Source: Symbiodinium sp. CCMP2592
Lineage: Eukaryota; Sar; Dinophyceae; Suessiales; Symbiodiniaceae
Reading direction: 5' to 3'
Assembly: GCA_905221615.1 (NCBI GenBank)
Contig: CAJNDT010000966.1
Span: 1-64,000, forward strand
DNA: 64,000 nt
Part shown: in pieces, positions 6,214-61,555 of the stretch
Layout: the number at the start of each line of letters is the position of its first letter
How positions within the stretch are numbered: position 1 is the first letter of the stretch
Translations under genes and position numbers: made by a program
The notes under the pieces: model-generated
Database searches by the model: none
The model's input: the letters and a program-made list of their open reading frames with translations, nothing else
Told to the model about the DNA's origin: nothing

Positions 6214-6326
6214 TGCCGACAACCCAGTAACCTAGCCATAAAAAGGGCTCCCTTTTTGGTATTAGGTAACTTTATAAGGAACCTAGGACTACAAAAAGAG
6301 AATAAGGGTACTACTGGGCATCCTAG
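6214..6326. mobile_element. IE-F element
   Basis: Core AAAAAGGGCTCCCTTTTTGGTATT...GGAACCTAGGACTAC and right end GGGCATCCTAG match the copies at 7269, 50703 and 61383; the left end is decayed (CGACAACCCAGTAACC). Confidence 0.8.
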
Positions 6327-7255: not shown

Positions 7256-7495
7256 TCATATAGTATGGCTAGGATACCCAGTAACCTAAGAATAAAAAGG
7301 CCTCTCTTTTTGGTATTGGGTAACTTTATAAGGAACCTAGGACTACAAAAAGGGAATAAGGGTACTACTGGGCATCCTAGGATGGCATAGTAGAGTACAG
7401 CGGACCAGAAGCCCCGAGGTCGGGAAGCCTTGGGCCGCCTCGATCAGCTGCTCCGGCGCAGGCTCGGAGGCGTAGGTGATCCTGCGAACTTGCTT
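7256..7495 (-). CDS. candidate coding piece interrupted by IE-F
   Basis: The exon 7386-7495 reads KQVRRITYASEPAPEQLIEA and onward, ending exactly where an IE-A/IE-P7 composite begins on its 5' side. ATGG flanks the IE-F element (7265-7268 and 7382-7385); removing the element with one copy gives TGC CAT ACT ATA TGA on the minus strand. Unknown product. Confidence 0.4.
7269..7385. mobile_element. IE-F element, intron-like
   Basis: Ends CTAGGATACCCAGTAACC / GGGCATCCTAG, 4 nt direct repeat ATGG. Nearly identical in its core to the copies at 50703 and 61383. Confidence 0.85.
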
Positions 7496-19340: not shown

Positions 19341-20155
19341 ATACTAATAACAGACTTCGTGGCTTACCAAAGTCTCCTCCAAGCCGCTGTAAGGGTTTGG
19401 GTCGCTGGGGTTGAATCCCACTTTGAAGATGCAGCCGCGCGGAAGACCATCGACTACCTGTTTGGGGGTAGAGGGCGGGGGAGGAAGCTGCTTCCCAGAC
19501 ACTAAACCCAAAACCCCTAATTCCGAAACCCTATTCAATGGGTTAGGGTTTACAGTGGGTTCTGGCGTTTAGGGCTTTCCGGTTGAGGCATCTTCAGGGT
19601 TTGGGGTCTGTGGGAGAGTGGGAGTTTATCGAACCACCTCATTTCAGGGTGGCCCTGAGAAAGGCCATTTTTCTTGCCTGTCTTGTCATCTAACGAGTAG
19701 CATTACTTTTAGCGCCGACATCATAGCTACCCTCAATAAGATGCCGCTTCTCTCATCGCAGCAGCAGCGTTCCCGGCAGCCCTGAATGCCAAATGCACCT
19801 CTGCAGCGCGGCCGCCGGCAGAAGTAAAGCGGTAAGCGCGCAAGGGTGCGGCAGGCGGGTGCACGTCCTCGGAGTCGTGCTCAGGGTTCAGGGTTCACGC
19901 TTTAGGGTTTAGGGGCTCAGGGTGATCAGCACTCCAGCTTCAGTCTATGTGTACAGCGAACGGTGAACGACTCGGAGCGCGCGAATGATCGTAACACAGC
20001 AATAACGAGGCTCTGGCATGCGCAGCGTGCATGAACACGAAGGTTTGTGACAGGAACCGCATCGGGCCGGGATTCAAGGTCTTTACCACTGCGGAGTTCA
20101 CCAAGCAAGATTAACCGCGATGTCTCCGCTGCGTTTGGGGTGCGTGGGAATTTTG
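19341..20155. other. unique sequence, no convincing gene
   Basis: Short open frames on both strands, a small TTTAGGG patch at 19890-19920, and nothing that reads clearly as coding. Confidence 0.3.
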
Positions 20156-20159
20156 GCGC

Positions 20160-20427
20160 ACTTTTAGAACTTTTAGAACTTCTAGAACTTTTAGAACTTC
20201 TAGAACTTTCAGAACTTTTAGAACTTCTAGAACTTCTAGAAATTTTAAAACTTTTAGAACTTCTAGAACTTTAAGAACTTCTAGAACGTTTACAACTTTT
20301 AGAACTTTTATGAACTTTTAGAACTTTTAGAACTTCTAGAACTTTTTAGAACTTTTAGAACTTTTAGAACTTTTGGAACTTTTAGAACTTTTCGAACTTT
20401 TAGAACCTTTGGAACTTTTAGAACTTT
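20160..20427. repeat. GAACTTTTA minisatellite, block 1
   Basis: About 27 copies of the 9-10 base word AGAACTTTT / AGAACTTCT. Long Leu/Glu frames here are artefacts. Confidence 0.97.
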
Positions 20428-20682
20428 GTATACATACACATATGTGCATGTATGTATGTATGTATAGATATACATACATGTACACATAAAAACACTTACA
20501 GTATAATTATACATAAACAAAAAACACAAACACATACATGTACATATCACTACATATATATCTGGACATACACACACATATGTGTATATATACAGGTGTG
20601 TGTATACATTTACATAGATATATACATACATCGACATGAAATATGTATTGTATGTCTGTAAATATATGTGGGAAATATGTAT
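20428..20682. repeat. (ACATAT/TGTATG)n microsatellite, copy 1
   Basis: Mixed CATA, TGTA and ATAC tracts. It is repeated with few changes at 20931-21180. Confidence 0.9.
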
Positions 20683-21287
20683 TGTATGTCTGTAGATATA
20701 TGTGGGGGGCTTCGGGCGTGTTTGGTGCAGCCTTGCTTCCTGAAAGGTGTTTGCTCTGATGATGTCTGTGTATGGTTCCGCAGTTTGAACCCTTCTGGAA
20801 TTTTTAAAACTTTTAGAACTTCTAGAACTTTAAGAACTTCTAGAACTTTTAGAACTTTGGAAACTTTTCGAACTTTTCGAAGTTTTCGAAGTTTTCGAAC
20901 TTTTCGAAGTTTTCGAACTTTTAGAACTTTGTATACATACACATATGTGCATGTATGTATGTATGTATTTATGTATGTATGTATAGATATACATACATAC
21001 ATACATACACACACTTGCAATACAAATATACGTAAGCAAAAAAGACACAAACACATACATGTACATATCACTACATATATATCTGGACATACACACACAT
21101 AGGTGTACATATACAGGTGTGTGTATATATTTACATAGTTATATACATACATCGACATGAAATATGTATTGTATGTCTGTAGATATATGTGGGGGGGCTT
21201 CGGGCGTGTTTGGTGCAGCCTTGCTTCCTGAAAGGTGTTTGCTCTGATGATGTCTGTGTATGGTTCCGCAGTTTGAACCCTTCTGGA
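20683..21287. repeat. higher-order ~0.5 kb repeat unit
   Basis: GTGGGGGGCTTCGGGCGTGTTTGGTGCAGCC...CCGCAGTTTGAACCC occurs at about 20700-20790 and again at about 21190-21280; between the copies lie a second GAACTT block (20795-20930) and a second TGTATG block. Distances between matching points are 503-521 bases. Confidence 0.85.
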
Positions 21288-21912
21288 ATTTTTAGAACTT
21301 TTAGAACTTTTAGAACTTATAGAACTTCCAGAACTTTTAGAACTTTGAGAACGTTTAGAACTTTTGGAACTTTTAGAACTTTTAGAACTTTCAGAACTTT
21401 TAGAACTTCAAGAACTTTTACAACCGGGTGAAGGTTACTAGAACTTTTACAGCTTTTAGAACTTTTCGAACTTTTAGAACTTCTAGATGTTTTACAATTT
21501 GAGAACTTTTATAACTTTTAGAACTTGTGGAACTTGTAGAACTTTTCGAACTTTTAGAACTCTTAGAACTTTCAGACCTTTTGGAACTTTTCGAACTTTT
21601 AGAACTTTTCGAACTTTTAGAACGTTTGGAACTTTTGGTATTTTTAGAACTTTTAGAACCTGTAGATCCTTTGGAACCTTTAGAGTTTGAAAGGTTTAAA
21701 ATTATAAAAGTTCTAAAAGTTCTGAAAGTTCTAAAAATTCCAAAAATTCTAAAAGTTCGAAAAGTTCTAAAAGTTCCGCAGTTTGAACCCTTTTGGAATT
21801 TTTAGAATTTTTAGAACTTTTAGAACTTCTAGAACTGTTAGAACTTGTAGAACTTCTCTAGAACTTCTAGAACTTTTAGAACTGTTAGAACTTCTGGAAC
21901 TTGTACAACTTT
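21288..21912. repeat. GAACTTTTA minisatellite, blocks 3-4
   Basis: AGAACTTTT copies on the plus strand; from 21700 to 21780 the orientation flips (AAAAGTTCTAAAAGTTC) and then flips back, an inversion inside the array. Confidence 0.95.
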
Positions 21913-22020
21913 TTCGACCCTTTAGCTGCTGAAACGCCCACGCGCCCCAAATGCAGGGAAGACGTTCCCACGCGCCCCAAATGCAGTCAACCCGATTAAC
22001 CACGGCGCGTCTCAGGTCCA

Positions 22021-22200: not shown

Positions 22201-23843
22201 AGGGGTTTCGGGTTTAGGGGGGAGTTCCCTTCGTTCCCTGGTTTCGGGTTTAGGGGGGAGTTCCCTACGTTCCCATAGGAAAACTTCTAGTTTGTTTATA
22301 TTTCCCTAGTATAAAACCTATCTTGTATCTAGTTTTAAGGTGGAAAACCAGGATTTTCTCGATATGTCCATATCTACATCCATAGACCTGTATTTGTCTA
22401 TGGATGTAGATATGTTTACGCAGGAAAACAAACGAGTGAAGTTGTTTTGGGAGCATTTATCTTATTTCTCTTTATTTGGTGTTCATTGTTGTTCTTTGGT
22501 TCGTTGTCTTGGTTTTTCCTAGGAAAACCAACAATGTATAGCTTCGTAAGATTAATACCACTTTTTGAATGAGTTCCTATGAATTCTTTCGTTTTGATTC
22601 GTTTACTTGGTTTTCCACGGAAAAACAAAATTTCTTATATCTTTTCATGAGATTAACTCATTGCTTTGTTTTTGGTTCGTGTTCTAGGTGTTTCCCGGGA
22701 AAAACCAACATTTCCCACATGAGAATATGCCTCTGGTTTAGGGTTTAGGGTTTAGGGGGGGAGGGGAGTTCCCTACGTTCCCGGGTTTCGGGTTTAGGGG
22801 GGAGTTGCCTACGTTCCCATAGGAAAACTTCTAGTTTGTTTATATTTCCCTAGTATAAAACCTATCTTGTATCTAGTTTTAAGGTGGAAAACCAGGATTT
22901 TCTCGATATGTCCATATCTACATCCATAGACCTGTATTTGTCTATGGATGTAGATATGTTTACGCAGGAAAACAAACGAGTGAAGTTGTTTTGGGAGCAT
23001 TTATCTTATTTCTCTTTATTTGGTGTTCATTGTTGTTCTTTGGTTCGTTGTCTTGGTTTTTCCTAGGAAAACCAACATTGTATAGCTTCGTAAGATTAAT
23101 ACCACTTTTTGAATGAGTTCCTATGAATTCTTTCGTTTTGATTCGTTTACTTGGTTTTCCACGGAAAAACAAAATTTCTTATATCTTTTCATGAGATTAA
23201 CTCATTGCTTTGTTTTTGGTTCGTGTTCTAGGTGTTTCCCGGGAAAAACCAACATTTCCCACATGAGAATATGCCTCTGGTTTAGGGTTTAGGGTTTAGG
23301 GTTTAGGGGAGGGGAGTTCCCTACGTTCCCGGGTTTCGGGTTTAGGGGGGAGTTGCCTACGTTCCCATAGGAAAACTTCTAGTTTGTTTATATTTCCCTA
23401 GTATAAAACCTATCTTGTATCTAGTTTTAAGGTGGGAAACCAGGATTTTCTCGATATGTCCATATCTACATCCATAGACCTGTATTTGTCTATGTTTACT
23501 TCTACGTTTACGCAGGAAAACAAACGAGTGAAGTTGTTTTGGGAGCATTTATCTTATTTCTCTTTATTTGGTGTTCATTGTTTTTCTTTGGTTCGTTGTC
23601 TTGGTTTTTCCTAGGAAAACCAACATTGTATAGCTTCGTAAGATTAATACCACTTTTTGAATGAGTTCCTATGAATTCTTTCGTTTTGATTCGTTTACTT
23701 GGTTTTCCACGGAAAAACAAAATTTCTTATATCTTTTCATGAGATTAACTCATTGCTTTGTTTTTGGTTCGTTTTCTAGGTGTTTCCCGGGAAAAATCAA
23801 CATTTCCCACATGAGAATATGCCTCTGGTTTAGGGTTTAGGGT
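22201..23843. repeat. three-copy 544-548 bp tandem repeat
   Basis: The anchor CATAGGAAAACTTCTAG lies at 22274, 22818 and 23366 (544 and 548 apart). Copies are almost identical and are separated by TTTAGGG units. Each unit contains five short palindromes of the form TTTTCC(N)GGAAAA and a duplicated ATCTACATCCATAGAC / GTCTATGGATGTAGAT inverted repeat that copy 3 has partly lost. Short frames in the three copies are shadows of the repeat. Confidence 0.97.
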
Positions 23844-24025
23844 TCTCTCTGGGTTTTGCTTCTTGCTACGCATCGATGCCTCCATGCCTGTGGAAGGTGG
23901 TGCCGAGTTGCAATCCTGCGCGCGTGCTGCATCGTTGATTCATAGCTTTGATCGGGCATGGGTGACCTGCAATGCCATCAATGAAGTCCAGTGTTGCGCA
24001 GGTATCAGTGTATATACGATTACGT

Positions 24026-39731: not shown

Positions 39732-41321
39732 CTACTCCAGGTCGACCGGAACAGAAACCGAGGGGAAATCTCTCTCTCGGCCATGCGTTGGCAGCTCTCT
39801 CTGCGAGGATGCTGGGAAACAGATCTCGGCTCCCTCTCCCGGGAGCCACGTGGCGACGTCCACCCCCCAGTATTCGTAGCCCTTCTTTTCCAGCCAGGCC
39901 ACTTCTGCTTTCTGGGAGTTGCCCAAGCCTTCTGAAACCGTGATAAACTCGCGCTCTGCTTCTGGGAGGGAGGCCAGGAACAAACGTCGCACTTCTCGGC
40001 TATACTGGGAGGATCCGTCGCCACGCGGCTCCTGGGAGAGATTGCCGAGGCCTGCCTCCAGCGCTTGTTGGAATTGTGGAGACTCCTCAAACAATTTCTG
40101 TTTTTCGTTTATATTCTCTCTCCGCAGGCTGTCCTCGCCTGCAGATTCGAAGCTGTCCACTTTGCCGTGGCCCACCTGGCCCTGGAAGAAATAAATCTCC
40201 AGCTGCGCACCGCTGGCGACGGCGATCTCAATGTTTTCCTTCCATTTGGTAAACCACCTGCAGCCCCACGGCTTCTGCTCCCCATAGAGCGGTGTGCACC
40301 AGCAGCTTCGCATGGGCAAGCCTTCGGCTACATCGTGCTTTCCATAATCACTGGTGCCCTCCGGGAGGAAGACGACCGCTGCACTGACCTGGCCGTCGCG
40401 GCTCTGGGAGACCAGTGACTCCCAGGCTCCTGCGTACTTCCCTGGCCAGCTGGCCACACACGGCCGCCCACGTTCGCGGATCACCGAGCCTTCGAAGCGG
40501 ATGGTCTTGTTGCTGATCTCGAACCGGGCTTTCGCCTTCTCAAATGCCAGAACCCTCCGGGATTTCGCGTCTAGCTCCGAGGGGGCAATGCCACCGCATG
40601 CCACGCAAAGGTAGCACGAGGAAGCGCAAGCGGCCCCTGGCCAAATGAGAAACGCGGTCCACCAGTGTCCTTGCAGGACGTGCAGGGCCGTCATAGCTGC
40701 CAGGGAGATCAGCGCGAGGAGCCACACCAGCCTGAACATAATGACGGTACGAGACACGTAGCTTCCAAATTCGAATTCAGAAGTTGCATCTTTGACACCC
40801 ATGGTCCCACCGCAAGCGCTGAGGCAACAACACAGCAGCACCGCCGTGCAGGCCAACATTGCGGCGTCGAAAGCACTGCCAGGTAGGGCGACCACGCACA
40901 GAATCAAGAGGGCCAGCGGAAGCACGAAGAAACATCCAATAACAAAGACATGCCCAAGCAATCCTTGAGCATCGCGCTTCTTCGCGGCAGCTGCTCGGAT
41001 CATTTCGTCCGATCGCTTCTGCGCTTCTTCGCGGCGCTTTGCCTCACGGGCAAGTTCCCGTGCCTCGGCTCGTTCGCGGCCTTTGCACCACTGCGAAAAG
41101 ACTTCAAAGTCCACCGAGGCTCGCAGGGATGCGCCTCCTTCTGCCTGGCAGCTGCCCACCTCCGTGCACTCTCGCAGCCGAACCTGGATCAAGCTCATCT
41201 TATCCGCCACTCCTTCGAAGGACTTCTGGGGATATAAGACACGCCAGTCGCCCGGGAAAAAGGCCACCTCGATGGGTGTCTGCAGGTCGTTCGTGACGGA
41301 GGCCGTGGACATGGAGGCCAT
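39732..41321 (-). CDS. paralogue 1: four-segment membrane protein with conserved C-terminal domain
   Basis: Uninterrupted 529-residue frame from the ATG shared with its paralogues. Residues 1-75 contain SVTNDLQTPIEVAF and GDW.V.YPQKS; 80-117 is a charged Arg/Glu-rich helix; hydrophobic segments lie near 121-146, 151-170, 194-215 and 221-243; the remainder (about 270-529) is a soluble-looking domain with SCWCTPLYGEQKPWGCRWFT, a Gly/Ser/Arg-rich loop and a GYEYWGVDVATWLPGEG stretch near the end. I do not recognise the family. The C-terminal domain is nearly identical in the three paralogues while the membrane part differs greatly. The frame stays open upstream of the ATG to a TTTGCAG site at 41375-41379 (GWPELPTQTRGFRSD), and paralogue 3 has a matching upstream peptide, so the true N-terminus may lie in an upstream exon. 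A large microsatellite lies just upstream. Probably a membrane protein; function unknown. Confidence 0.85.
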   Translation of the reverse strand: MASMSTASVTNDLQTPIEVAFFPGDWRVLYPQKSFEGVADKMSLIQVRLRECTEVGSCQAEGGASLRASVDFEVFSQWCKGRERAEARELAREAKRREEAQKRSDEMIRAAAAKKRDAQGLLGHVFVIGCFFVLPLALLILCVVALPGSAFDAAMLACTAVLLCCCLSACGGTMGVKDATSEFEFGSYVSRTVIMFRLVWLLALISLAAMTALHVLQGHWWTAFLIWPGAACASSCYLCVACGGIAPSELDAKSRRVLAFEKAKARFEISNKTIRFEGSVIRERGRPCVASWPGKYAGAWESLVSQSRDGQVSAAVVFLPEGTSDYGKHDVAEGLPMRSCWCTPLYGEQKPWGCRWFTKWKENIEIAVASGAQLEIYFFQGQVGHGKVDSFESAGEDSLRRENINEKQKLFEESPQFQQALEAGLGNLSQEPRGDGSSQYSREVRRLFLASLPEAEREFITVSEGLGNSQKAEVAWLEKKGYEYWGVDVATWLPGEGAEICFPASSQRELPTHGRERDFPSVSVPVDLE

Positions 41322-41374
41322 GGCGGCGTCGCTCCGAAATCCTCGCGTTTGCGTTGGGAGCTCGGGCCAGCCAC

Positions 41375-45984: not shown

Positions 45985-47613
45985 CTAACAAGGCGGGCCG
46001 ATGGGGACACAAATTGAAGGGAAGTCATCTTGTCGACCATCCACACGAGGATTCTTCCTCGAAGATGCGTTGAAACAGATCTCCGCTCCCTCTCCCGGGA
46101 GCCACGTGGCGACGTCGACCCCCCAGTACTCGTAGCCCTTCTTTTCCAGCCAAGCCACTTCTGCTTTTTGGGAGTTTCCGAGCCCTTCTGAGGCTGTGAT
46201 AAATAGGCGCTCTGCTTCTGGGAGGGAGGCCAGGAACAAACGCCGCACTTCTCGGCTATACTGGGAGGATCCGTCGCCACGCGGCTCCTGGGAGAGATTG
46301 CCGAGGCCTGCCTCCAGCGCTTGCTGGAATTGTGCAGACTCCTCAAACTCTTTCTGTTTTTCGTTTATCTTCTCCCTCCGCAGGTTGTCCTCGCCTGCAG
46401 ATTCGAAGCTGTCCACTTTGCCGTGGCCCACCTGGTTTTGGAAGAAGTAGACCTCCAGCTGCGCACCGCTGGCGACGGCGATCTCAATGTTTTCCTTCCA
46501 TTTGGTAAACCACCTGCAGCCCCACGGCTTCTGCTCCCCGTAGAGCGGTGTGCACCAGCAGCTGCCGGGCAAGCCCTCATCTTCAGGGATGCTGTCGCAC
46601 TTGCCAAAGTCGTCCGTGCCCTCCGGGAGGAAAACGACCGCGGCACTCACCTGGCCGTCGCGGCTCTGAGAGACCAGTGACTCCCAGGCCCCTGCGTATT
46701 TCCCCGGCCAGCTGGCCACGCAAGGGCGGCCACGCGGCCAGCTGATCACCGAGCCTTCGAATCGGATCGTTCGGTTGCTAATCTCGCAGCAGGCTTCCTT
46801 AAGCTCTCGTTTCAACTCTTTCTTCTGTTCTGAGTCCAGCTCCTCCGGAAACACGATATTCAAACAGAAGAGCATGGCAAAAATAAAAACCGAAAGCCCG
46901 ACTATCCATGGCGTCCAATAGTATCCTAGTGAGGCGTGCTGAGCCGTCATAGCGCCCAAAGCCAGCAAAGCAAGGAGACATGCAAACAGGAAGGCAAGAC
47001 GGAAGAAGACTTCATACTTCCCCAAAAAGAAGGTGCTGCGGTCGTCTCCTGCAACCGAAGTATGAATATTGAATGCCCAAGTGATGCAGCAGCACAAGGG
47101 TACTGTTGCCCCGGCCAGCAGCATGGACGCAACGTCGCTCTCGGGCGGAATGACTGCGCAAACGAGAAGGAGCGCTAACAGGATTGCGACGAAAGGCCCG
47201 AGACACTTCAACGTATGCCATGCCTTTTCGTTTCGCTTCTTGGTGGCGGCTTCTTCGATCATAGTGTCAATCCGTTCCTCTGCCTCCTTGCGGCGCTTTG
47301 CCTCGCGGGCCAATTCCCGTGCCTCGGCTCTGTCGCGGCCTTTGCACCGTTGAGAAAAGGCTCCGAAGTCCACGGAAGCTTGCAAAGATGCGCCTCCTGC
47401 AGCCTCGCAGCTGCCCTTCACCTCCGGGCTTTCGCGCAGGCGAAGCTGGATCAAGGCCTCCACTTCAGACTCGGGGCCACTTGAAGTCGAAAAAGCACTC
47501 ACCTCCGTCACTCCGACGTCGCAGGACTTCTGGGGATATATGACACACCAGTCGCCATGAAAAGCCACCTCAACGGGTGTCTGGAGGTCGTTCGTGACGG
47601 ACGCCGTGGCCAT
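45985..47613 (-). CDS. paralogue 2: four-segment membrane protein with conserved C-terminal domain
   Basis: Uninterrupted frame of 542 residues from the ATG at 47611-47613, the position homologous to the start in paralogues 1 and 3 (a GTG-started extension to 47634 exists but is not conserved). Same order: VTNDLQTPVEVAFHGDWCVI near the N-terminus, an insertion (FSTSSGPESEVE) absent from the others, an Arg/Glu-rich helix, four hydrophobic segments, and the C-terminal domain with SCWCTPLYGEQKPWGCRWFT. The C-terminus (DDFPSICVPIGPPC) diverges slightly. Upstream, the GGCCGGCCCGAGCTCCCC block is conserved at nucleotide level but a frame change breaks the upstream peptide seen in paralogues 1 and 3. 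Same strand and about 4.7 kb from paralogue 1, so a tandem array. Family unknown; membrane location inferred. Confidence 0.85.
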   Translation of the reverse strand: MATASVTNDLQTPVEVAFHGDWCVIYPQKSCDVGVTEVSAFSTSSGPESEVEALIQLRLRESPEVKGSCEAAGGASLQASVDFGAFSQRCKGRDRAEARELAREAKRRKEAEERIDTMIEEAATKKRNEKAWHTLKCLGPFVAILLALLLVCAVIPPESDVASMLLAGATVPLCCCITWAFNIHTSVAGDDRSTFFLGKYEVFFRLAFLFACLLALLALGAMTAQHASLGYYWTPWIVGLSVFIFAMLFCLNIVFPEELDSEQKKELKRELKEACCEISNRTIRFEGSVISWPRGRPCVASWPGKYAGAWESLVSQSRDGQVSAAVVFLPEGTDDFGKCDSIPEDEGLPGSCWCTPLYGEQKPWGCRWFTKWKENIEIAVASGAQLEVYFFQNQVGHGKVDSFESAGEDNLRREKINEKQKEFEESAQFQQALEAGLGNLSQEPRGDGSSQYSREVRRLFLASLPEAERLFITASEGLGNSQKAEVAWLEKKGYEYWGVDVATWLPGEGAEICFNASSRKNPRVDGRQDDFPSICVPIGPPC

Positions 47614-47689
47614 GGCCTTACGCGCTCCGGACACCGTCGCCTTTGCGAGGGGAGCTCGGGCCGGCCGCCAGAATACTCAAAGTTGCAGC

Positions 47690-50680: not shown

Positions 50681-50702
50681 ATCAGCCCGAGACTAGGGTG
50701 AC

Positions 50703-50814
50703 TAGGATGCCCAACAACCTAGGAATAAAAAGGGCTCCCTTGTTGGTGTTGGGTAACTTCTATAAGGAACCTAGGACTACAAAAAGGGAATAAAGGTACT
50801 ACTGGGCATCCTAG
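50703..50814. mobile_element. IE-F element
   Basis: CTAGGATGCCCAACAACCTA...GGGCATCCTAG; well conserved. Confidence 0.92.
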
Positions 50815-51132: not shown

Positions 51133-53441
51133 CTAGCAAGCCGGATCGATGGGAACACAAACTGAAGGGCAGTCATCCTGTGGACCACACGCTTGTGGCT
51201 TCGAAGAACTTGGGACGCAAAACTCGACTCCTTCTCCGGGGAGCCAGGTGGCGACGTCCACGGCCCAGTACTGGTAGCCCTGCTTTTCCAGCCAAGCCAC
51301 TTCGGCTTTTTGGGAGTTGCCCAAGCCTTCTGAAACCGTGATAAACTCGCGCTCTGCTTCTGGGAGGGAGGCCAGGAACAAACGTCGCACTTCTCGGCTA
51401 TACTGGGAGGATCCGTCGCCACGCGGCTCCTGGGAGAGATTGCCGAGGCCTGCCTCCAGCGCTTGCTGGAATTGTGGAGACTGCTCGAACTCTTTCTGCT
51501 TTTGGTTCACCTTCTCTCTCCGCAAGTTGCCCTCGCCTGCAGATTCGAAGCTCTCCACTTTGCCGTGGCCCACCTGGCCTTGAAAGAAGTAGACCTCCAG
51601 CTGTGCACCGCTTGCGACTGCGACCTCGATGTTTTCCTTCCATTTGGTAAACCACCTGCAGCCCCACGGCTTCCGCTCCCCGTAGAGCGGTGTGCACCAG
51701 CAGCTGCCGGGCAAGCCCTCATCTTCAGGGATGCTGTCGCACTTGCCAAAGTCGTCCGTGCCCTCCGGGAGGAAGACGACCGCGGCACTCACCTGGCCGT
51801 CGCGGCTCTGGGAGACCAGTGACTCCCAGGCCCCTGCGTACTTCCCCGGCCAGCTGGCCACGCAAGGGCGGCCGCGCGGCCAGCTGATCACCGAGCCTTC
51901 GAATCGGATCGTTCGGTTGCCTAGGTGCTTGTTAAGGGATTTAACTTAGGATATTTAATAAGGCAACCATATTATTTACTAAAGATCCCTACTATGGTAA
52001 CTTAAATTGAGTTCCTTACCTCAATAAGGTATTATGATTGTTAATATCTTATTATTCTCTATAGATCCTTACTATGGGAATTCCTCAACAAGAGCCCAGT
52101 TACTGACGTTGGTTTCGGCTGCTCTCAGCTCAAGATCCTTGATTTGCTGCTGCCCAGCGCCCAAGTCCATTGAATTGGTGTAGCCATCCCAGAAACAAAA
52201 GATCCCACAACCTAGGTTCTCGTTAAGGAATTTGATTTAAGTTACCATAGTAGGGATCTACAGTAAATAACATGGTTTCCTAATTCTGGTAACCTAATTC
52301 AACCCTTAACAAGAACCCAGGAACATCCCACAGGCCAAATGATAGTGGCGGTCCACCAGTATCCTTCCAGGGCATGTTGGGCCGTCATGGCCTGGGCTTT
52401 AGAGTAACCTTGGAGAAAACAGTATAGACTTATAGTTCATATAGGTTCCCGGTAAGTAACAGGTCCCACAAAGTATTAAAGTATCATACTCCGAAGCCCA
52501 GTGGCGGAGAAGGCCAGCAGAGCGAGGAGACCCACTAGCCGAAGGCCAACACGCGTGCAGAATCGATACTTTCCAAGTCGGAAATCGGTGTCTTCATCTT
52601 TTCCTAGGTTGGCCCTGAAAATCAGAACAACATTTCATAAACAAAAATCTTAAGTGCAATAAGAGAAATTCGCAAAATTTCCAAAAGGCCTACCTAGTTG
52701 CCAGCATAAACGCCCAGAAGGCTGATACAGCAGCACAGAGGCACGGTGGCACTGGCCAGCAGTGCGGCTGCAACGGCGCTCTCGGGTGGGATGGCCACGC
52801 AAAGAAGGATGAGGGCTAATGGGAGGCCTGAAACAATTCCGATTCGTCTAACTACATACCATGCTTCTTGATTCCGTATCTTGGTAGCGGCTTCATGGAT
52901 CATAGCATTCGTCCGCTGCTGGGCTTCTTCTCTTCTCTTTCCTTCACGGGCCAGCTCTCGTGCCTCGGCTCGGTCGCGGCCTTTGCACCGTTGTGAAAAA
53001 GCTCCGAAGTCCACGGAAACTTGCAAGGATGCGCCTCCTGAAGCATTGCAGCTGCCCGTCACCTCCGGGCTTTCGCGCAGCCGAACCTGGATCAAGGCCT
53101 CCGAAGCTTCCACAGAGCAGGACATCTTGGGATACACCACCTTCCACTCCTCACCTCAGGAGCTGAACACCCTAGCCCCCAAAAAGCTTAACCTTTCCCA
53201 ATCATGGTAGGATTTGTCGGAGCCCCAAAAGGTTAAAGGCTACCTAGTCAGCTACTAGCTACTTGTGGGGCATCATGGGGAACTAAAGGTTAACCTTTTT
53301 GGATATATAGGGATTAACTATACAGGGGCTATACTAGCGAAAAATGTTAAAGGTTACCTACTCGACTACTAGGACTAAGTCACTCCGAAATTTGACTTCC
53401 ATGGCTGCTTGCAGGTCGTTCGTGACGGAAACCGCGGCCAT
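51133..53441 (-). CDS. paralogue 3: six-exon membrane protein gene split by five introner-like elements
   Basis: Exons (minus strand): 53380-53441, 52697-53150, 52503-52607, 52323-52388, 52099-52206, 51133-51915. Joined they give 525 codons plus stop with no break, against 529 and 542 residues in paralogues 1 and 2, and the order of features is the same: SVTNDLQ start, Arg/Glu-rich helix, four hydrophobic segments, and the C-terminal domain with SCWCTPLYGERKPWGCRWF. Each intron starts and ends at a short direct repeat: TCAC, GTT, GGC, ACA, GTT (plus-strand), of which four coincide with complete codons. None has usable GT-AG ends; the only GT-AG reading of the 52.6 kb intron would create a stop. 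The C-terminal 260 residues are almost the same as in the siblings, so the gene looks functional rather than decayed, though expression is unproven. An upstream peptide (VRPELPSRMRGFRSDA) after a GTCGCAG site matches paralogue 1. Confidence 0.85.
51919..52101. mobile_element. IE-J element: intron 5 of paralogue 3
   Basis: 183 nt; direct repeat GTT (51916-51918, 52099-52101). Ends CCTAGGTGCTTGTTAAGG / CCTCAACAAGAGCCCAG. The interior holds two ATTATTTACTAAAGATCCCTACTATGG-like inverted segments. Insertion is between codons AAC and CGA. Confidence 0.92.
52210..52325. mobile_element. IE-J element: intron 4 of paralogue 3
   Basis: 116 nt; direct repeat ACA (52207-52209, 52323-52325). Ends CCTAGGTTCTCGTTAAGG / CCCTTAACAAGAACCCAGG show it is a sibling of the element at 51919, only 108 coding bases away. 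Confidence 0.92.
52392..52505. mobile_element. IE-K element: intron 3 of paralogue 3
   Basis: 114 nt; direct repeat GGC (52389-52391, 52503-52505). Ends CTGGGCTTTAGAGTA / ATACTCCGAAGCCCAG. No second copy noticed in the window. Confidence 0.88.
52611..52699. mobile_element. IE-G element: intron 2 of paralogue 3
   Basis: 89 nt; direct repeat GTT (52608-52610, 52697-52699). GGCCCTGAAAATC...GCAATAAGAGAAATTCGCAAAATTTCC...AAAAGGCCTACCTA matches the dispersed IE-G family (13908, 18190, 19265, 31033). Confidence 0.88.
53155..53383. mobile_element. tandem/nested IE-H elements: intron 1 of paralogue 3
   Basis: 229 nt; direct repeat TCAC (53151-53154, 53380-53383), phase 2. Contains two IE-H copies: CCCTAGCC..AAGCTTAACC...AAAAGGTTAAAGGCTACCTAG (53171-53250) and AACTAAAGGTTAACC...AAATGTTAAAGGTTACCTA (53281-53360). 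Confidence 0.88.
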
Positions 53442-53530
53442 GGCATCGCTCCGAAAACCTCGCATTCGCGAGGGGAGCTCGGGCCGGACACCTGCGACAG
53501 ATGAATTTCCGGAAAGCACAAAGCCTGTAC

Positions 53531-61256: not shown

Positions 61257-61555
61257 ATGGCGTTGGCCTTTACATTGGGGCTTGGTTACTTCCGAGTGTT
61301 GTTTTCGGGAGCTGGGGCCGTTAACGACCCGGTTCCACAAGTACCGACAGCCTCTAGTCTCTCATTACTATCGACCTACAATCTAGGATGCTCAACAACC
61401 TACATATCAAAAGGGCTCCCTTTTTGGTATTTGGTAACTTTATAAGGAACCCAGGACTACAAAACGGGAATAAGGGTACTACCGGGCATCCTAGCAATCC
61501 TATGGGCAACCTGGATCCGAAAGACGGGCGGCAGCAAAGCCCTGATACTGCCTAG
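61257..61555 (+). CDS. candidate complete small gene interrupted by IE-F
   Basis: ATG at 61257 starts MALAFTLGLGYFRVLFSGAG, then AVNDPVPQVPTASSLSLLST. CAAT (61379-61382, 61495-61498) flanks a 116 nt IE-F element; the join reads ACC TAC AAT CCT ATG GGC and continues MGNLDPKDGRQQSPDTA to TAG at 61553-61555. That makes 60 codons plus stop, exactly in frame. The first 15 residues could be a signal peptide. No family recognised. Confidence 0.5.
61383..61498. mobile_element. IE-F element, intron-like
   Basis: CTAGGATGCTCAACAACC...GGGCATCCTAG with a 4 nt CAAT duplication. Confidence 0.92.

Follow-up and report, generated by a model that had tools for sequence, protein, structure and literature searches.

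Five introner-like insertions in one of three tandem paralogues of Symbiodinium sp. CCMP2592

Structure of the locus

The window, i.e., the whole 64-kb stretch (64,000 nucleotides, C966:1-64000) of Symbiodinium sp. CCMP2592 DNA that was analyzed, contains three tandem paralogues on the minus strand, referred to here as A, B and C (Table 1). Siblings A and B were both read as single open frames, as an earlier sequence-only reading of this DNA had proposed, and alignment of the three loci bore out its observation that C carries five insertions (I1 to I5) absent from A and B. The cuts in gene C were placed at a GNNN repeat, followed by CTNNG at the element start and CNNAG at the element end, and all five insertions have the common form GNNN-CTNNG…CNNAG-GNNN. 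Each combines a GT or GC donor with an AG|G acceptor (5/5; donors GT, GC, GC, GT and GT from I1 to I5). Once all five are removed, the frame of gene C is open over 523 aa, and retention of any single insertion leads to an early stop.

Table 1. Positions of the three siblings and of the exons and insertions of gene C in the window
Feature	Position	Strand	Length	Description
Sibling A	39732..41321	minus	529 aa	single exon
Sibling B	45985..47613	minus	542 aa	single exon
Gene C	51133..53441	minus (53441→51133)	523 aa after predicted splicing	six exons and five insertions
Exon 1 of C	53384..53441	minus	58 nt	
I1	53155..53383	minus	229 nt	GT-AG; duplication GTGA/GTGA; composite; weak TIR
Exon 2 of C	52702..53154	minus	453 nt	
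I2	52604..52701	minus	98 nt	GC-AG; duplication GCAA/GAAA; TIR CTAGGTAGGCC/CTAGGTTGGCC
Exon 3 of C	52506..52603	minus	98 nt	
I3	52392..52505	minus	114 nt	GC-AG; duplication GCCA/GCCA; TIR CTGGGCTT
Exon 4 of C	52325..52391	minus	67 nt	
I4	52212..52324	minus	113 nt	GT-AG; duplication GTTC/GTTG; TIR CTGGGTTCTTGTTAAGG/CTAGGTTCTCGTTAAGG
Exon 5 of C	52104..52211	minus	108 nt	
I5	51921..52103	minus	183 nt	GT-AG; duplication GTAA/GCAA
Exon 6 of C	51133..51920	minus	788 nt	without insertion; low synonymous divergence from B

The single frame kept after removal agrees with the sequence-only reading, but the product has 523 aa and not the 525 residues proposed, and it aligns without gaps to the 523-aa protein P0001. 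From the insertion lengths given earlier (183, 116, 114, 89 and 229 nt), 183, 114 and 229 were recovered, while I2 has 98 nt and not 89, and I4 has 113 nt and not 116. The earlier boundaries of I2 and I4 were rejected because genome copies of I2 end at the 98-nt boundary and P0001 is ungapped at the joints. A CAAC repeat, the probable basis of the earlier I2 boundary, sits inside the terminal inverted repeat (TIR) of I2. The direct repeats ascribed to every insertion were present as 4-bp duplications, perfect in only two of the five (GTGA, GCCA) and matching in three of four letters in the other three; letters 2-4 match in 12 of 15 places across the five (binomial P 1.2e-5). At I5, the donor copy is GTAA while the downstream copy and the sites in A and B all read GCAA, which is consistent with a later GC to GT change of the donor. 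TIRs, likewise ascribed to all insertions, are clear in I2 to I5, and I1 has only a weak one (4/8 first letters, counted by eye).

The window was also scanned blindly for the ends CT[AG]GG…CC[CT]AG with a TIR matching in at least 9/12 positions and a 4-nt flanking repeat matching in at least 3/4. This yielded 8 hits, compared with a mean of 0.3 and a largest value of 2 in 20 dinucleotide shuffles. Half of them (4/8) are I2 to I5, and gene C occupies 3.6% of the window. Four copies of one repeat, 88-93% alike, lie at 6222-6326, 7276-7380, 50702-50814 and 61383-61494; two of these were caught by the scan, with CTAGGATGC ends and flanking repeats GTGA/GTTA and CAAT/CAAT. The stretches 20147-21925 and 22203-23844 contain short-period tandem repeats, with a 182-aa frame nearby, and three copies, 96-98% identical, of a ~540-bp repeat.

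Repeat families of the insertions

Genome searches revealed that the insertions have relatives elsewhere. For I2, the genome contains 8 further copies, of which 7 span its full length; the 7 copies that were read all end at the 98-nt boundary, with duplications matching in 4/4 letters in six and in 3/4 in one. For I3 and I4 there are at least 39 other copies each (39 among 40 scored of 783 candidates, and 39 among 40 scored of 905 candidates, respectively). Their matches begin at query positions 1-7 (one at 15), close to where the first duplication ends, and in 38/39 other copies of I3 and 27/39 of I4 they extend as far as the last base or end at it. Thirty copies of each of these two families, gene C's own copy included, were fetched. 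At least three duplication letters match in 25/30 I3 copies (perfect in 21) and in 20/30 I4 copies (perfect in 15), own copies included; out of 120 letters, 99 match for I3 and 84 for I4, against 39.9 and 41.7 with the pairing shuffled. Three of the I4 copies (L028, L029 and L031) have flanks in common and may represent one insertion.

The consensus of the I4 family approximates its own reverse complement (88/111 positions), which makes it a near-palindromic fold-back element. I5 and I1 match repeats over only part of their length. The last 98 nt of I5 (positions 86-183), which follow further sequence, are I4-family sequence in reverse orientation (88% over 99 columns), and the 5' part of I1 (up to 53249-53381) matches a repeat with at least 31 copies among the matches listed, at 86-90%. 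Distances to the family consensus are 0.227 for I2, 0.150 for I3 and 0.119 for I4.

The targets of these families differ in whether they would supply a donor. Among copies with a good duplication, own copies included, a G-initial duplication was found on the strand read in 6/20 for I4 and 3/25 for I3, and a G-initial donor is possible on either strand in 13/20 and 8/25, respectively; none of the 7 I2 copies has a G-initial upstream duplication. Since most of their copies' targets give no G-initial donor, I2 and I3 resemble general MITEs. Among the 60 copies fetched for I3 and I4, only 2 (L027 and L049) have an empty-site frame exceeding the 90th percentile of background (159 codons), and this sample therefore shows no general sign of the two families sitting in genes. 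For four I4-family copies, chosen because their empty-site frames were longer, the sequence was read through the empty site, and a Pfam scan covered three of them. The only match among the three came from L033 (duplication GCTC), whose empty-site translation matches RCC1 repeats: two RCC1 matches below the cut-off span the junction at residue 65, and RCC1_2, above the cut-off, starts at residue 71. An I4-family element (82% over 102 columns) with extra internal sequence also lies in intron 2 of the gene C relative L013, and this intron carries a perfect GTGA/GTGA duplication. By sequence, L013 intron 2 and L033 are candidates for other introns of I4-family origin.

Gene family and host protein

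The gene family has several dozen genomic loci (82 matched stretches, with 80 of 126 candidates scored), and among the best 120 of 263 homologues the named organism, where given, is always a Symbiodinium. We read 12 members besides C, namely A, B, L009-L014 and L075-L078. None of the 12 has an insertion at any of C's five sites; L076-L078 align poorly over residues 160-260 and were judged there by their open frames. Seven of the 12 are single-exon genes (A, B, L009, L010, L075, L076 and L077), including three of the four distant ones, and protein P0005 is identical over 540 residues to the frame of L010. L078 seems to be interrupted once near its 3' end by ~114 nt, the frame ending near locus base 1581 and the match resuming at ~1683. 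L011-L014 have two introns each, near C residues 60 and 90, at positions that are nearby but not all identical; the arrangement hints at repeated intron gains at preferred spots. Because the L012 model and annotated protein P0018 disagree in two residues at intron 1, the exact intron positions in these four genes were not relied on. L014 has an in-frame TAA at ~3198, before the conserved C-terminal domain, and by its sequence looks like a decaying copy.

Two database proteins bear on the filled and empty state of the sites. P0001, an independent relative, aligns to spliced C across all five joints with 478/523 residues identical. Its longest contig has 1807 nt, shorter than the 2309 nt of the filled gene, so that P0001 comes from an unfilled gene if not from a transcript, and precise removal is supported under either origin. 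P0015 (364 aa, on a 15.5-kb contig) starts with MFSALKGANPGKDED at the I2 site and then tracks C, with no inserted residues at the sites of I3, I4 and I5. The tails of I2-family copies translate in the exon 3 frame as IFQRL(Y/S/stop)RANLG, and the first 11 residues of P0015 agree in register with the tail of one such copy, L079, in 5/11 positions versus 3/11 with the end of C's exon 2 (counted by eye). If P0015 is a plain frame call on genomic DNA, this would be suggestive of a genome in which I2 is filled and I3 to I5 are empty. I2 being filled alone would fit its position as the most diverged insertion.

In a tree of 13 members from this genome, A, B and C form a group (82/92) apart from L010-L014 (92/98), with L009 beside A-B-C; the order within A-B-C is not settled, and the distant members are on long branches. 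A tree of 10 family members and 36 database proteins placed A, B, C, P0001, P0015 and P0028 in one group at 100/100, in which C pairs with P0001 (95/86) and then with P0015 (100/99), and B pairs with P0028 (100/97).

Pfam searches with A, B and the exon-6 frame of C gave nothing above the cut-off (best DUF2207_C, 16.1 bits versus 33). With NCBIfam, B reached only SLATT_1 at 15.1 bits versus a cut-off of 41, and P0001 had no match. Solved relatives of P0001 were not found (best E 0.5). Its AlphaFold2 model, with a mean pLDDT of 89.4, predicts a strand-rich N-terminal part, long helices mid-chain and a mixed C-terminal domain, and a comparison of this model with PDB folds returned no match at E < 0.001.

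Divergence among the siblings

Synonymous divergence is distributed unevenly along the genes. Over exons 1-5, dS among the siblings is 0.87-1.26, and dS/2 is 0.44 for C-B and 0.48 for C-A; over exon 6, dS/2 is 0.12 for C-B (B-C dS 0.231) and 0.20 for C-A. Between B and C, dN is 0.185 versus a dS of 0.496. Across exons 1-5, ~95 of 183 synonymous sites differ between B and C; over the initial two thirds of exon 6, ~14 of 114 do so (Fisher 1.3e-12, with rounded counts). Because synonymous differences drop so sharply there, we read exon 6 as converted between siblings: gene conversion among the tandem copies A, B and C probably took place in exon 6 and ended near the I5 site. At 46060-46778 and 51133-51920, the low exon 6 divergence, far below that of exons 1-5, forms a mosaic among the three sibling pairs. 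All five insertions fall in the half of gene C outside exon 6 (chance ~0.03).

Similarity among A, B and C begins only ~50 nt upstream of the ATG and ends near the stop codon. The regions 41216-41372, 47519-47666 and 53410-53487 mark where it begins, shortly past an AG; to judge from the sequence, the AG upstream of A and C could be a trans-splice acceptor.

Origin of the insertions

Based on these comparisons, we estimate a probability of roughly 90% that the five insertions are introners, i.e., non-autonomous, MITE-like cut-and-paste DNA transposons that landed in the coding exon of an intronless paralogue after its separation from its siblings. Each insertion is the whole of a predicted intron (5/5), its removal restores the frame, and its site is empty in A, B and 10 other loci. 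Copies from end to end at many unrelated places in the genome were found for I2, I3 and I4, and copies of a part for I5 (86-183) and I1 (5' part). The marks of transposition are present as target-site duplications and TIRs, the latter weak in I1.

A transposase supplied in trans would have inserted the elements, each insertion duplicating a 4-bp target with an initial G. The upstream target copy, beginning with GT or GC, would then become the 5' splice site, and the element's terminal CNNAG together with the G of the downstream copy would become the 3' splice site. Spliceosomal splicing would take out the element and one target copy, so that the original frame is restored. Since both ends read CTNNG…CNNAG, either orientation would be workable, and I4 and I5 show both. 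I2 is probably the oldest of the insertions, with I3 to I5 arriving later.

Gene C might instead be a pseudogene that was broken by ordinary MITEs, with nothing spliced. A G-initial donor is lacking on either strand in 17/25 I3 and 7/20 I4 copies, and in 7/7 I2 copies as judged by the upstream copy; by these counts I2 and I3, at the least, would be MITEs of a general kind and not dedicated introns, and the related copy L014 bears an early stop. Against this stand the GT or GC at all five insertions with AG|G at the far end, the exons that are all open and joined in one 523-aa frame, the excess of dS over dN (B-C 0.496 versus 0.185), and the close relative P0001, which encodes 523 aa without gaps. 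A broken, unspliced gene is therefore highly improbable. A different account of intron birth is put forward tentatively and with more doubt than confidence: general fold-back MITE families with the ends CTNGG…CCNAG may turn into introns whenever their 4-bp target starts with G on the coding strand, whichever way round they insert. Intron status would then be a property of the target, and no dedicated introner would be needed. If this is true, gene C would represent a datable series of events, I2 and then I3 to I5, in a richly invaded recipient beside two untouched siblings.

The sequence-only reading had offered either intron gain in C or loss from A and B by reverse transcription, and this pair of explanations held up, with gain favored. 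Gain is favored because all 12 other members read lack insertions at C's sites, because the repeat families of I2 to I4 occur with 4-bp duplications at other genomic sites, and because their consensus distances (0.119-0.227) are well under the dS/2 of exons 1-5 (0.48, 0.44). These distances are not below the dS/2 of exon 6 (0.20, 0.12), and were exon 6 to give the duplication's true age, the dating would no longer hold.

Loss would mean that the five introns were ancestral to all three genes, and that C kept them while A and B lost them via reverse-transcribed mRNA, by retroposition or cDNA conversion. The reuse of processed cDNAs is on record for dinoflagellates, and the resemblance among the siblings, limited to ~50 nt before the ATG through about the stop, is as for processed copies; the flanks could, however, have decayed anyway, given a dS of 0.87-1.26 in exons 1-5. 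The 3' half, homogenized and intron-free in exon 6, shows the pattern expected of partial cDNA conversion, and by exon 6 alone the insertions are not younger than the duplication, whereas by exons 1-5 they are. Loss would also need many parallel events, with 12/12 other members lacking these introns and seven of them single-exon. A spliced-leader relic is a mark of retroposition, and a 15-nt spliced-leader pattern of dinoflagellates was searched for in the 64-kb window. It gave one match (3 mismatches) against 2.87 expected by chance, and is thus no commoner than chance in the window; a decayed relic may be present at A or B. Neither such a relic nor a loss of parental introns, as expected of retroposed genes, was seen for A and B, and their single-exon state is common to L009, L010 and L075-L077. 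Loss from the siblings is accordingly quite unlikely in our view, and we retain gain in gene C.

Comparison with known systems

The origin of new spliceosomal introns is a long-standing question. The present locus offers filled and empty versions of one gene within 14 kb, in which the origin of each predicted splice site is visible, and lets five events be timed by a single paralogue clock. It is a possible test bed for why one tandem copy was invaded and its neighbors spared, and for a possible role of gene conversion in keeping introns out of the 3' half. A search of the openly licensed literature listed no title about gene C, which is no proof that none exists.

The mechanism is already published for Symbiodinium, and gene C is an unusually clear new example of it. 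In the parts of Gozashti et al. 2022 (PMC9860276, Fig. 2B legend) considered here, S. microadriaticum introners are described with a 4-bp target-site duplication (TSD), a TIR, a carried 3' splice site and a donor derived from the TSD. The insertions of gene C agree with these in the TSD, the TIRs, the element-borne 3' site and the 5' site from the duplication, and the method described there likewise compares introns in opposite orientation. The likeness is one of arrangement; unlike the cases in those parts of the paper, gene C has five insertions in one paralogue beside two uninterrupted siblings. Wider surveys set the scale. Introners in five dinoflagellate genomes are attributed to Roy et al. 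2023 (Curr Biol, as cited in PMC11453091), a genome-wide survey as it is cited there, in contrast to the single locus of gene C. GC/GA donors are given as 25-74% in Symbiodiniaceae in a passage of PMC11453091. According to the sections of PMC10522408 used here, introner elements occur in 3.2-6.3% of genes in Symbiodiniaceae and, among Suessiales isolates, in 2.5-5.7% of the tandem duplicates.

Reichman and Vize 2014 (PMC4201569) described introns gained in an otherwise intronless Symbiodinium gene family, that of the soluble peridinin-chlorophyll protein, which resembles gene C as a within-genus intron gain in a family with intronless other members. As far as the excerpted text of that paper goes, two introns occur in the long genes and one in the short, timed by the phylogeny of isolates; gene C differs from this account in that a single tandem copy has five insertions and that transposon families were identified in its own genome.
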